36,656 nt of DNA from Candidatus Peribacteria bacterium (GTDB lineage Bacteria > Patescibacteriota > Gracilibacteria > UBA1369 > UBA12463), in the NCBI GenBank assembly GCA_943355055.1, contig CALREA010000010.1:1-36656 (forward strand), written 5' to 3'. Of the stretch, positions 1-9,486 are shown one piece after another; position 1 is the stretch's first letter, and every line of letters begins with the position of its first letter. The notes under the pieces were generated by a model. It was not told the origin of the DNA, did not search any database, and saw only the letters and a list, made by a program, of their open reading frames with translations. Position numbers and translations under genes: made by a program.

Positions 1-47
1 AAAAAAATCAGCTGTTTGATATATGCCATTTTTATCGTATGATGCAC

Positions 48-67
48 AAATTTCCCCGGGGAAATTT
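48..67. repeat. 20-bp perfect palindrome in the left intergenic region
   Basis: AAATTTCCCCGGGGAAATTT is self-complementary with no spacer and is followed by TTTA. It could be the terminator of a gene left of the window or a protein-binding site. The rest of positions 1-201 is AT-rich. It holds a weak hairpin (TCAGAA at 120-125, TTCTGA at 135-140, then five T) and no gene I can support. Confidence 0.5.
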
Positions 68-201
68 TTAGCTTTAAAAATGATACTTTTTCGACATTAG
101 TAGCACTAAGAGCCCATAGTCAGAAAAGTCAATGTTCTGATTTTTGAAAAACTGGGGTCTTTTTAGTACAAGTTGCAGCACAAGTAGCGGTAACATATGC
201 A

Positions 202-1685: not shown

Positions 1686-3485
1686 CTAATCCCTGCTCAA
1701 CTGTAACTTCGGAGGCAATTGGGCGTCATCAGAAACAACATTCTGATCGACGCTCTTTTCAATTTCTACAATCTTCTCATTAGAAACCGGAACAGCCACA
1801 GCCGCAACCTCAGCTACACTCTCCGTCTTCGTAGCAACACTCATTGGATTCTTCAACGCAACATACTGAACCTCCAAACTTGCTCTTCGAGCAGGAACAT
1901 CACTCTCTACTGTCAGCTTTTTTGATACTTTTCCGGATACTAACGTATCCACATCCTTAATGCGCTGTTGATATTTCCCAAGTGCCTTCGCATACTCATC
2001 CCTCAACCCCTTATCCTGCAACACCTGTGCCTCCGCCAAAAACTGAGAAGCCTGGTCAAGAGCTACACTCAATTTCTGATCCTCGGGCGCCTGAACAAAA
2101 TCTCGTTCCTCGAGGGCCACTTTCACATCGTATAAACTGGAATCCGGTTTCGCTGATAGTAATTTCGATCTCGCGGACTGCAGTACCGCTACAGACAACT
2201 TCTTAACATCATCACTTAAGATCCCATCGGCTTTCTTAGCGATAGTTTCAAGTTGGTCAAACGAGGCACGAACCTCATCGACCTTCACATTACCTTTTTC
2301 TAACACTTCATAAAATGACCTCTCGGCAATATTAAGTTCCAATTTGAATCGTTCATTGGAATCGAAAGCAAGGAGCAATGAAGCATTTTCCCGCAATACG
2401 CCGCTAGGTCCGGCCACCACTCCCTGATTCTGACTCTGAGCATCAGCAATAAGTTGCGCATCCTTTTGTAAATTAACACTCACCCACTCCTTCTCGGTAC
2501 CTTTCAGCTGAATCAGCTCAATTCGGCTCTTCGAGGCACTTGACCCAACGGCGGCATTAGCTACGAGCTGGTAGCCCTTCACGACCGTCTTCATCTCAAT
2601 CGACTTCTCCTCAGACTTCTGCGGGAGCGATACGTTCACAGCATTCTGAAAAACCTGCACTTGTGAAGCACCATTCTCAGAAGAAACACTGAACGTCGCT
2701 CGCTTGGAAGCTGAAGTAATGAGATCATTCGCCCTTACCCTAAAATCGGAATTTTTTACAAAATCAAACACGCTTGACCAAAGCATACCGCGCTCTAAAT
2801 CCAACTCAACCAAATGATCAACTCCAAAATTTTCCGAACGCAAAGATTGAAAAGCCAGATCCGTATTCGCAAACAATCGAGTAAAGCTCTTATCAAAATA
2901 TTTCACCTCCACGCGACCATCTTCACCCGTACGCAACTCATCCCCTTCCTTCAACTCAAATCCCTGCTGCGCCATCGAAGCCTGTCCGTCACGCACGATC
3001 TGTACATCACCGGAAACTTCATGGACAACCGTAAATTCACGAGCATAGGTGACAGGAACTCGGAGTACATACGCGAATAAACTGAGTGCCAAAACACCAC
3101 CAACCGAGAAGCTCGCCGTAAGCTTCCTCATGAATCCCGCATTAAACCAAGAAGCAAAAATCGACCTCTCGGGTAAAGCATATAATTTCTCGCGAATAAT
3201 CGCTCGTCGCACAGGATTCAATAGAACTTCTCGGGAAGCACTTCGGATCCATGAAGTAAGTCTATCAAGCAAGTACGATTCATCCTCGACATCCACCTCT
3301 CCCGGTACGGTATTCTGAATTCGCTGAAACATATGCGCCTTAATACGACTCTTCGCATCACGATCCATAGGAGAAAAATGCACGGTAGGTAGTTTTTTTA
3401 ACTTCTCGCCAAGCATCACGAGTGCAGCCTCCATTTCGGCGCTCATCTCACTATCATCCGTATTGTTATAGTCAAAATTGTTCAT
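1686..3485 (-). CDS. Membrane FecR-domain protein, probable anti-sigma factor
   Basis: 599 residues. An acidic N-terminal cytoplasmic part (about 1-125) has anti-sigma-like helices around EMEAALVMLGEKLKKLP. One transmembrane segment lies near 128-148 (SVGGVLALSLFAYVLRV). A FecR-type beta domain follows at about 150-225 (HEVSGDVQIVRDG, then LKEGDELRTGEDGRVEV). Beyond about 370 a long helical C-terminus resembles DUF5667, a domain often found in anti-sigma-like membrane proteins. It lies directly downstream of an ECF sigma gene on the same strand, the usual sigma/anti-sigma order. The likely role is to hold the sigma factor at the membrane and release it on an envelope or surface cue; this is inferred from architecture and context. 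The gene ends in TAG. Confidence 0.75.
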   Translation of the reverse strand: MNNFDYNNTDDSEMSAEMEAALVMLGEKLKKLPTVHFSPMDRDAKSRIKAHMFQRIQNTVPGEVDVEDESYLLDRLTSWIRSASREVLLNPVRRAIIREKLYALPERSIFASWFNAGFMRKLTASFSVGGVLALSLFAYVLRVPVTYAREFTVVHEVSGDVQIVRDGQASMAQQGFELKEGDELRTGEDGRVEVKYFDKSFTRLFANTDLAFQSLRSENFGVDHLVELDLERGMLWSSVFDFVKNSDFRVRANDLITSASKRATFSVSSENGASQVQVFQNAVNVSLPQKSEEKSIEMKTVVKGYQLVANAAVGSSASKSRIELIQLKGTEKEWVSVNLQKDAQLIADAQSQNQGVVAGPSGVLRENASLLLAFDSNERFKLELNIAERSFYEVLEKGNVKVDEVRASFDQLETIAKKADGILSDDVKKLSVAVLQSARSKLLSAKPDSSLYDVKVALEERDFVQAPEDQKLSVALDQASQFLAEAQVLQDKGLRDEYAKALGKYQQRIKDVDTLVSGKVSKKLTVESDVPARRASLEVQYVALKNPMSVATKTESVAEVAAVAVPVSNEKIVEIEKSVDQNVVSDDAQLPPKLQLSRD

Positions 3486-3538: not shown

Positions 3539-3570
3539 GCCGGGTCACCAGACCTGTCCCTTGGGGGGAA
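3539..3570. repeat. GC-rich intergenic repeat, copy 1
   Basis: GCCGGGTCACCAG is followed by ACCTGTCCCTTGGGGGGAA. Both blocks recur, slightly changed, at 9361-9418. The core is an imperfect palindrome of the form TCCC-short centre-GGGG. It lies in the 107-bp gap between the sigma-factor gene and the FecR gene. Confidence 0.6.
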
Positions 3571-3592: not shown

Positions 3593-4159
3593 CTATCCGG
3601 ACTCCGACCCCTGTTTCATCCCCATCTCCTCGAGTACCCCCTTCAAAGCCTTCAATGCCCTGAACTGCAAAATCCTCAAGCTCCCCTCGCTCTTATCCAA
3701 CAAAGCTGAAATCTCCTTATTAGAAAGTTCATTGATGTACTTCAGCACCAAAACCTGTTGGTAATCATCTTTCAAGCCCTTCAGCGCCTTTTGAAGCAAA
3801 TCACTCTCAATCCCCCGCTCCGTAACAATCTTGGGATGATACTCAGCCCGATACTCCTGATACTCCTCGGTAATCGCCTCAACGGTCTTACGAGAACGAT
3901 AGTGATCGACCACCAAATTATGAGCAACACGGAACAACCACGAGGAAAAATTATCCTTGGTTTGCTTGTACCCAGCAATCTTCTCCCACGCTTTCACAAA
4001 AACCGTCTCCACTAAATCCTCAGCATCATCCGCATCTACCCGGAAATACACATAACGATAAATCGCATCCACATACTGTTCATACAGGGATGCAAAAGCG
4101 TCCTTGTCACCTTGCTTGGTCCGCTCAACAAGCTCCTGTACCTGTGTCTCGGTCATCAT
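3593..4159 (-). CDS. ECF-type RNA polymerase sigma factor
   Basis: 188 residues, a normal length for a two-domain ECF sigma-70 factor. Region 2 is clear at about 20-95: FASLYEQYVDAIYRYVYFRV, then DADDAEDLVETVFVKAWEKI, then FSSWLFRVAHNLVVDHYR. Region 4 is at about 125-180, with a helix-turn-helix in ELSNKEISALLDKSEGSLRI. It directs core RNA polymerase to a restricted promoter set. The gene starts with two ATG codons and no ribosome-binding site. An ECF-like promoter immediately upstream places the transcript start near the first ATG, so the mRNA may be leaderless. The FecR membrane protein downstream is the probable cognate anti-sigma. It lies 48 bp after the fructose-bisphosphatase gene on the same strand. 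Confidence 0.88.
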   Translation of the reverse strand: MMTETQVQELVERTKQGDKDAFASLYEQYVDAIYRYVYFRVDADDAEDLVETVFVKAWEKIAGYKQTKDNFSSWLFRVAHNLVVDHYRSRKTVEAITEEYQEYRAEYHPKIVTERGIESDLLQKALKGLKDDYQQVLVLKYINELSNKEISALLDKSEGSLRILQFRALKALKGVLEEMGMKQGSESG

Positions 4160-4207: not shown

Positions 4208-5170
4208 TTATCTCATTATAAAGAACTCCAATGCCTTTTCAACCTCTTTCTTCGATCCGGCAAAAAACGGCGTTCTCTGGTCCAATTGCTCCAAAGGTTT
4301 ATTCATAATTGAAATAACCCCATCGCTGGCCACTCCTCCCGCCTCGATGATAAGGAAACCCATCGGTCCGCACTCATAGAGCAGCCGCAATTTACCCCTC
4401 GCGGGACTATCTGCTGAATCGCCCCTCGCGGGACTACTTGCTAGATCGCCAAGCGGAACATCGACGTATCCAGGATAGGTAAATATTCCCTTACCTTTGA
4501 CAAGAATATGATTAATATCCGGGACCATACCTCCCGAATAACGCAGGGTGTACTGATTATCAAGCCAGTAATCAACCAACGCTTTGTACTGAGGATTTTT
4601 CGCGCATGCTCGCAAATTGCCGGGCGCAAAATATTTCCCCTCTTCAGCAACCTGAATACTCTCTTTCTGTAGCTCAAATCCACCATCGGTCAATACATAT
4701 TGATGCACCCCCTTTCCCTTGACGGTAATAAAAAGTGTCGTCCTCGGTCCATACACCGCTACCATCGCGCTATACATCTGACTTGGCTTTTTTCCAATAA
4801 ATGAACCGCCGGGATAGATACCGATAATCGTTCCCACCGCGAAATTCACGTCAACTAATGATGATCCATCGAGCGGATCGAACGCTACGGAAAATTCCCC
4901 GTCGATATGCAAACGTCGTTCAATCTCCTCCTCTTCTGAAGCCGCAAAATCAACGCTCTTCACCCCTGACAACTGCTTCATCAAAATATCATTCGATGCC
5001 ACGTCCAACTTCAACTGATCCTCTCCAAACACATTTTGGGTACCGGCATATCCGGACGTCCCGACATGCACAAGCTCCCGAATGTGAAATATTCCATCCG
5101 CGCACGCAAGCATGACCTCATACAAAGAATCACTTACTCCCAACGTTTTCAAATGTTCATCAAGTTGCAT
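4208..5170 (-). CDS. fbp: Class I fructose-1,6-bisphosphatase
   Basis: 320 residues, close to the class I family (about 330). It hydrolyses fructose-1,6-bisphosphate to fructose-6-phosphate and phosphate, the committed gluconeogenic step, in the cytoplasm. The metal-binding signature FDPLDGSSLVDV is at 97-108. YSGGMVPDINHIL at 211-223 and KLRLLYECGPMGF at 260-272 are the substrate-binding and C-terminal family motifs. It sits 22 bp after the class I aldolase gene, the preceding pathway step, on the same strand. Oddly, two tandem 9-residue repeats (DLASSPARG, DSADSPARG; residues 242-259) separate the TYP loop from KLRLLYE, where family members usually have a short varied linker. Their DNA is listed separately. 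Confidence 0.93.
   Translation of the reverse strand: MQLDEHLKTLGVSDSLYEVMLACADGIFHIRELVHVGTSGYAGTQNVFGEDQLKLDVASNDILMKQLSGVKSVDFAASEEEEIERRLHIDGEFSVAFDPLDGSSLVDVNFAVGTIIGIYPGGSFIGKKPSQMYSAMVAVYGPRTTLFITVKGKGVHQYVLTDGGFELQKESIQVAEEGKYFAPGNLRACAKNPQYKALVDYWLDNQYTLRYSGGMVPDINHILVKGKGIFTYPGYVDVPLGDLASSPARGDSADSPARGKLRLLYECGPMGFLIIEAGGVASDGVISIMNKPLEQLDQRTPFFAGSKKEVEKALEFFIMR
4394..4447 (-). repeat. Two 27-bp tandem repeats in frame within fbp
   Basis: Each unit has the form GAT, nine variable bases, AGTCCCGCGAGGGG and one more base, and encodes nine residues ending in SPARG. The upstream unit contains CTAGCAAG next to a TCCC...GGGG core. The same combination occurs in the intergenic repeat at 9376-9400, so this looks like a member of that family inserted in a gene. 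Confidence 0.6.
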
Positions 5171-9056: not shown

Positions 9057-9341
9057 TAGCGTATAACTTTTTTACTCTTAAATCTAAAGTAAGACAACTA
9101 TAGTCATCCAAAGCCGGATAGTCAATTTATTCATCAATCCAAGTACACAAAAACTGTACATATAGAGCTACAAAATCCAGCTATGCTCAAGCCATAAACA
9201 AAAGAAGGTCATTATAAATAATGATGCACAACTTTTTAGTTATTGCATAACAAATGTATACAGTGGATATGAACGAATTTACGAAACACTAGCCACATAC
9301 AATTATAAAACAAAATAGCAATATAACGAATTTCTCAAAGC

Positions 9342-9355
9342 TGTGCCCGGGCACA
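9342..9355. repeat. 14-bp perfect palindrome
   Basis: TGTGCCCGGGCACA is self-complementary with no spacer and lies at the left edge of the GC-rich patch, 6 bp before the repeat cluster. Confidence 0.5.
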
Positions 9356-9360
9356 CTTCA

Positions 9361-9440
9361 GCCGGGTCAGCAGCTCTAGCAAGAGTTTCCCTTGGGGGGA
9401 GACCTGTCCCTAGGGGGAGAAGCGTCCCTTGTGGGCGGAT
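9361..9440. repeat. GC-rich intergenic repeat cluster, copy 2
   Basis: It begins with GCCGGGTCAGCAG (9361-9373), nearly identical to 3539-3551. Three TCCC...GGG cores follow: TTTCCCTTGGGGGGAGA (9386-9402), GACCTGTCCCTAGGGGGA (9401-9418) and GTCCCTTGTGGGC near 9424-9436. CTAGCAAG (9376-9383) before the first core is also found in the repeats inside fbp. Confidence 0.6.
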
Positions 9441-9486
9441 CAAGAAAATAATAGCGAAAAATGACAGAACATACTAAGATACAGCC

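Follow-up and report, generated by a model that had tools for sequence, protein, structure and literature searches.

Small palindromic or hairpin-forming repeats are known from mitochondria and from Rickettsia, among others. The double-hairpin elements of Allomyces mitochondria lack flanking duplications, and movement via RNA has been proposed for them (PMC2800124). The GC clusters of yeast mitochondria carry short flanking repeats, merge into larger units and turn over rapidly between strains (PMC4478555). Rickettsia palindromic elements enter conserved protein genes in frame, where they are translated and tolerated, and occur between genes as well (PMC2229807). Here we analyse a 36,656-nt stretch of DNA (the window) from the genome of a Ca. 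Peribacteria bacterium (CPR; G000, 1,142,183 bases or 1.14 Mb in 44 contigs), and conclude that a 54-bp insert in its fbp gene very probably consists of two tandem, aged copies of a non-autonomous mobile 27-nt double-hairpin element. No earlier description of such an element in Peribacteria or the CPR was found in the open-licence literature.

The two units in fbp are direct tandem repeats, 85% identical, that stand in frame and encode GDLASSPAR-GDSADSPAR-G (insert-derived stretch SPARGDSADSPARG). The initial annotation had recognised these 27-bp repeats and the 18 residues that they add, and both observations stand; its coordinates, 4394-4447, are one base off the true 4395-4448. The two fbp units are the least canonical (9.2 and 5.8 bits; E in a 981-bp stretch 0.0024 and 0.071), with a first hairpin shorter by one base and a TCCC hairpin with a GCGA loop. 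Exact AGTCCCGCGAGGGG occurs in the window's genome only in these units, and its genome-wide count with one or two mismatches is near the control level. We assign them to the family by their length, layout, motifs and insertion behaviour, and not by score. The fbp genes of 18 relatives, other species of the genus included, lack exactly those 18 residues, and the residues are unconserved in other fructose-bisphosphatases, in line with the earlier view of the 54 bp as an entry into the gene. AlphaFold2 models the window's Fbp with a mean pLDDT of 84, mostly with confidence outside the insert; the sole segment below pLDDT 50 is 242-263, which spans the insert (residues ~241-258), and the insert is thereby modelled as a disordered loop. 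The earlier suggestion that such inserts persist as surface loops fits this model of Fbp; for the other host proteins we infer tolerated loops.

Table 1 Features of the window discussed in the text, with positions in the window and strand.
Feature	Position	Strand	Sequence	Remarks
Unoccupied target, copy of an AT-rich repeat	48..69	+	AAATTTCCCCGGGGAAATTTTT	relatives (L008/L009) hold exactly 27 extra nt
Canonical unit	3541..3567	+	CGGGTCACCAGACCTGTCCCTTGGGGG	41.4 bits, E 1.3e-15, unfiltered window scan
fbp, class I fructose-1,6-bisphosphatase, 320 aa, host gene	4208..5170	-		insert of 18 residues just before GKLRLLYEC
First 27-nt unit in fbp	4422..4448	-	CGATCTAGCAAGTAGTCCCGCGAGGGG	degenerate, GCGA loop
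Second 27-nt unit in fbp	4395..4421	-	CGATTCAGCAGATAGTCCCGCGAGGGG	
Three units nested in one another	9354..9435	+		boundaries read from the sequence
Outermost unit	9354-9362 + 9418-9435	+	CACTTCAGC^AGAAGCGTCCCTTGTGGG	recognised by eye
Middle unit	9363-9371 + 9400-9417 (span 9363..9417)	+	CGGGTCAGC^AGACCTGTCCCTAGGGGG	in AGC^A loop of outermost unit
Innermost unit	9372..9398	+	AGCTCTAGCAAGAGTTTCCCTTGGGGG	40.1 bits, E 4.6e-15; in AGC^A loop of middle unit

Copies collected by BLAST and by a pattern that makes no demand on pairing align to a 27-nt consensus, CGNNNC-AGCA-GN'N'N'TG followed by TCCC-NN-GGGGG, which folds as two small adjacent hairpins. Stem 1 shows standard pairs in 94% of cells and both-sided changes in five of its six pairs. 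Counted over the whole structure, both-sided changes amount to 38 cells; shuffles give 10.5 (none of 500 reaches 38) and slid controls at most 8. Stem 2 is invariant and is drawn from base complementarity alone. The structural claim rests on covariation because the free energies of single units are ordinary, most units being indistinguishable from shuffles; in two GC-rich subfamilies a different fold is predicted as the preferred one. Many stem-1 pairs are G.T, which become A.C mismatches on the complementary strand, so any functional structure would belong to the given strand, as RNA or as single-stranded DNA. The orthologous leuS copies of two species (L052 and L067) differ by a compensatory stem-1 pair and a loop change; the copy either underwent compensatory evolution in place or was replaced.

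Beyond fbp, the window contains one canonical unit and a nest of three (Table 1). The former is located between genes at 1686-3485 and 3593-4159, the second of which is, by inspection, that of an ECF-like sigma factor. The initial annotation had pointed to a related core at 3557-3569, which is accounted for by this canonical copy, and to a recurrence at 9376-9400, which corresponds to the innermost unit of the nest; the cores that it placed at 9401-9436 are the 3′ halves of two further copies, split by inserted copies. The middle unit has one additional G at 9399. In the window, a strict form of the motif has two occurrences; mononucleotide shuffles have a mean of 0.005.

Nesting recurs across the family, with at least ten composites in which one unit lies inside another. 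Excision of the inner 27 nt leaves a 27-nt outer unit whose stem is complete or nearly so, and the nesting points fall in the AGCA loop of hairpin 1, the preferred site (AGC^A in L006, in L074 and at both levels of the window's nest), or slightly 3′ of this loop, by a few bases. Near-identical 54-nt composites are found in uppP and a MurB-like gene, and again in the window and a RecF-like gene; a composite of this length may move as one piece. ‘Half units’ of 13-15 nt, considered as a second element, were rejected as such: they are what remains on the 3′ side where a nested copy has split a unit. A perfect palindrome, TGTGCCCGGGCACA, adjoins the triple nest (window 9342-9355 and L017) and occurs at G000:C7:26464 unaccompanied by the 27-mer; it is perhaps another small palindromic element.

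Searches with the intergenic copy at 9330-9446 and an 80-nt array from argS revealed that the family is dispersed through the genome, which extends the repeat family of the initial annotation well beyond the window. Five genomes of the genus (G000-G004) were compared, all genomes in the analysis being draft assemblies. A covariance model matched strongly at dozens of places in G000 and in G003, at fewer in G001 and at a handful in G002; the fifth congener, G004, gave essentially no matches beyond chance level. The copies read number 58 in G000 (54 distinct sequences), 31 in G003, 10 in G001 and 5 in G002, or 46 in the three congeners beyond G000; these counts are minima. The copies were collected by searches and from sequence stretches. 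In G003, three subfamilies are represented at different places by five, four and two identical copies, an indication of recent multiplication in bursts. Among 84 other genomes of the order the covariance model returned chance-level matches only, and a 380-genome sample of the phylum gave isolated weak matches in four genomes outside the genus. The best match outside the genus reached 24 bits (E 1.1e-6), and two pattern matches in viral contigs were neither of them a proper unit. Judged from these searches, the element is confined to one Ca. Peribacteria genus.

The evidence for mobility is comparative throughout and comes from metagenome-assembled genomes. Orthologues without the element, compared across congeners, are short of 9 or 18 residues; among the matches listed, such orthologues exist for uppP, pgi, gpmI, queG, two MurB-like genes, a PilB-like ATPase, a PDDEXK protein, a second argS and others. 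Occupied and unoccupied genes were further found for leuS, murG, dnaG, aroAK, argS, ileS and ruvB, with small adjacent indels blurring the residue counts in some genes, for example ruvB and murB. Compared as DNA, occupied and unoccupied sites differ by 27 or 54 nt, and no duplication is seen at the junctions. A 27-nt difference likewise separates L008/L009 from the window's own copy, near position 60, of an intergenic repeat (Table 1). In uppP, AAAAATC-element-GAAGATC stands against the unoccupied AAAAATCGAAGATC, and here, as in the L163/L069 pair, the boundaries are unambiguous and match the unit. Presence is sporadic between close species. Some sites are common to species, namely leuS (G000, G001), uppP (G000, G002) and a zinc-ribbon protein (three species), which suggests that copies can persist or that sites can be struck twice.

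Element-external junctions tend to follow G/A. A short inverted repeat with a stem of at least 4 bp lies near 20 of 69 junctions, compared with 8.9 expected (p ~0.0005), in a set that still contains some nested and paralogous sites; the preference for hairpin-like targets is modest and suggestive. Structured RNA genes gave no sign of being targets, as none of the three tRNAs near 20 sampled copies contains a unit and the window has no Rfam matches. In G001 and G003 the 27-mer has landed repeatedly in an intergenic repeat marked by ATATCACCTGATAT and TATCGTAGGATAGCTTTTCAAAAG motifs (L071, L076, L093, L097, L176, L178, L195). A variable linker with GTGCGCAC-like palindromes is found in a paralogous family of ~300 aa (L001, L047, L050, L053, L090, L186; one member was scanned and has no Pfam match), and the element often strikes this linker in different copies. 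A second paralogous family, of ~550 aa with a Cys-rich, zinc-ribbon-like tail (L010, L183, L194), has the same insertion in three species; other paralogues are free of it, and several stand in a row in G001 and G002. A second dispersed repeat, AT-rich (AAATTTCCCCGGGGAAATTTTTAGC...), lies within window positions 1-90 and recurs at L008, L009, L015 and L045. Its copies elsewhere are flanked by GAAAAGACCCCAGTTTTTCCA-type inverted ends, the window's contig begins in one copy, and it is probably a MITE.

Of the insertion clusters read, most (57/92) are inside open frames of 200 codons or more. By Pfam, the hosts include class I tRNA synthetases, phosphoglucose isomerase, QueG, BPG-independent phosphoglycerate mutase, a family-28 glycosyltransferase, phosphomannomutase, BacA/UppP, a RecF/SMC-type ATPase, FemAB, EPSP synthase-shikimate kinase, DnaG primase, RuvB and NAD(P)H-hydrate dehydratase; the more specific names IleS, MurG, MurB and RecF are putative and follow our own reading of domains and alignments. 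Five of the six frames of the unit are mostly stop-free and the sixth usually contains a stop. In the 57 ORFs of at least 200 aa, the five frames are used 56 times and the stop-prone frame once, with insertions on both strands; the peptide predicted in LeuS, for example, is PPRDNPAGP. Because the element is read in five frames and on both strands, it is the DNA and not the peptide that is conserved, and since 27 nt amount to nine codons in mostly stop-free frames, the copies are read through.

This behaviour in genes, in frame and tolerated, with further copies between genes, is that of Rickettsia palindromic elements (PMC2229807), so one alternative is an element of that type, or another MITE, mobilised by a transposase with specificity for terminal inverted repeats. 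We consider it unlikely: the unit is only 27 nt, no terminal inverted repeat joins its two ends, and the occupied and unoccupied pairs lack the target-site duplication of a classical MITE. A REP/REPIN-type element mobilised by a RAYT (Y1) transposase, like those of many proteobacteria, would also consist of short, palindromic, dispersed and partly intergenic units. However, Y1_Tnp (PF01797) is found in none of the five genomes of the genus, with matches in the positive-control genomes, no tetranucleotide tag of the GTAG/CGTC type is evident, and the copies are mostly intragenic, which leaves this origin very improbable. Equally little speaks for inserts that are removed or skipped at expression, so that the proteins would lack them. 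Small hairpin insertions in essential genes are similar in kind to the mitochondrial bypassing elements reportedly described by Lang et al. in 2014, a study cited in PMC4478555, but the length here is a multiple of three, the near-avoidance of the stop-prone frame (1/57 genes) is as expected under translation, and nothing calls for skipping. Least credible is a local minisatellite, with slippage creating the fbp repeats independently of other sites: the fbp units are tandem with a common GCGA loop, and a local duplication of the first could have produced the second, but most copies are single and dispersed, unoccupied sites have nothing of the unit, and copies nest inside copies, so that only the duplication step in fbp could be local.

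In the reading that we prefer, the double-hairpin element acts as selfish DNA that is tolerated for its small size, and a benefit to the cell is not evident. It would multiply through a single-stranded hairpin intermediate, either single-stranded DNA or RNA of the strand that tolerates G.T/G.U pairs. Insertion would fall to some activity of the host for which hairpin-like or AGCAG/GG-rich sequences are acceptable targets, the AGCA loop of the element itself among them, and survival in genes would follow from a length of nine codons, almost stop-free in five of six frames, that encode short loops. Copying through a hairpin single strand seems the likeliest route because there is no terminal inverted repeat and no duplication, a stem covaries and the element nests in itself. 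Reverse transcriptase is absent from the element-rich G000 and from G001 and G002, and is present in G003 and G004. More tentatively, the element may spread with no dedicated transposase, a hairpin copy of single-stranded DNA or RNA entering hairpin loops, preferably its own AGCA tetraloop, and building Russian-doll nests. Stem pairing would then be required for mobility, which would explain the covariation, and essential proteins would receive tolerated nine-residue loops from the element.

An element of this kind would rank among the smallest mobile sequences known in bacteria. The clean occupied and unoccupied pairs in several species make transposase-free, duplication-free movement of a hairpin directly testable. 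In these reduced CPR genomes, tRNA synthetases, primase, RuvB and glycolytic enzymes carry repeated nine-residue insertions from apparent selfish DNA, which bears on annotation, on structure prediction and on ideas about the origin of protein loops.

Compared with the known systems, the element shares with the Allomyces-type repeats, including the hairpin repeats of sponges and cryptophytes, small mobile hairpin units, sporadic occurrence between close species, occasional location inside genes and, for the Allomyces elements, freedom from flanking duplications (PMC2800124). It differs from them in being bacterial, fixed at 27 nt and frequently inserted in frame in protein genes; no common sequence is known, and the resemblance is one of kind only, 27 nt being too short to argue descent. 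Yeast GC clusters such as GC42 are likewise GC-rich, palindromic and mobile, with mergers and rapid turnover (PMC4478555). They differ in having short AG/ACT repeats on their flanks and a mostly intergenic location; the present element has no flanking repeat, and the majority of its copies lie in coding sequence. The initial annotation had likened the repeats to Rickettsia elements, and as an analogy (palindromic, in frame, tolerated) this is sound; kinship is not, for those elements measure 105-146 bp, with a 12-bp terminal inverted repeat and a long stem-loop (PMC2229807), and have no sequence relation to a 27-nt, two-hairpin unit from one Ca. Peribacteria genus. In size and ends, as read from sequence, the unit is unlike both the Rickettsia elements and classical MITEs. 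By analogy, then, the element would work like the double-hairpin elements of Allomyces and be tolerated like the palindromic elements of Rickettsia.
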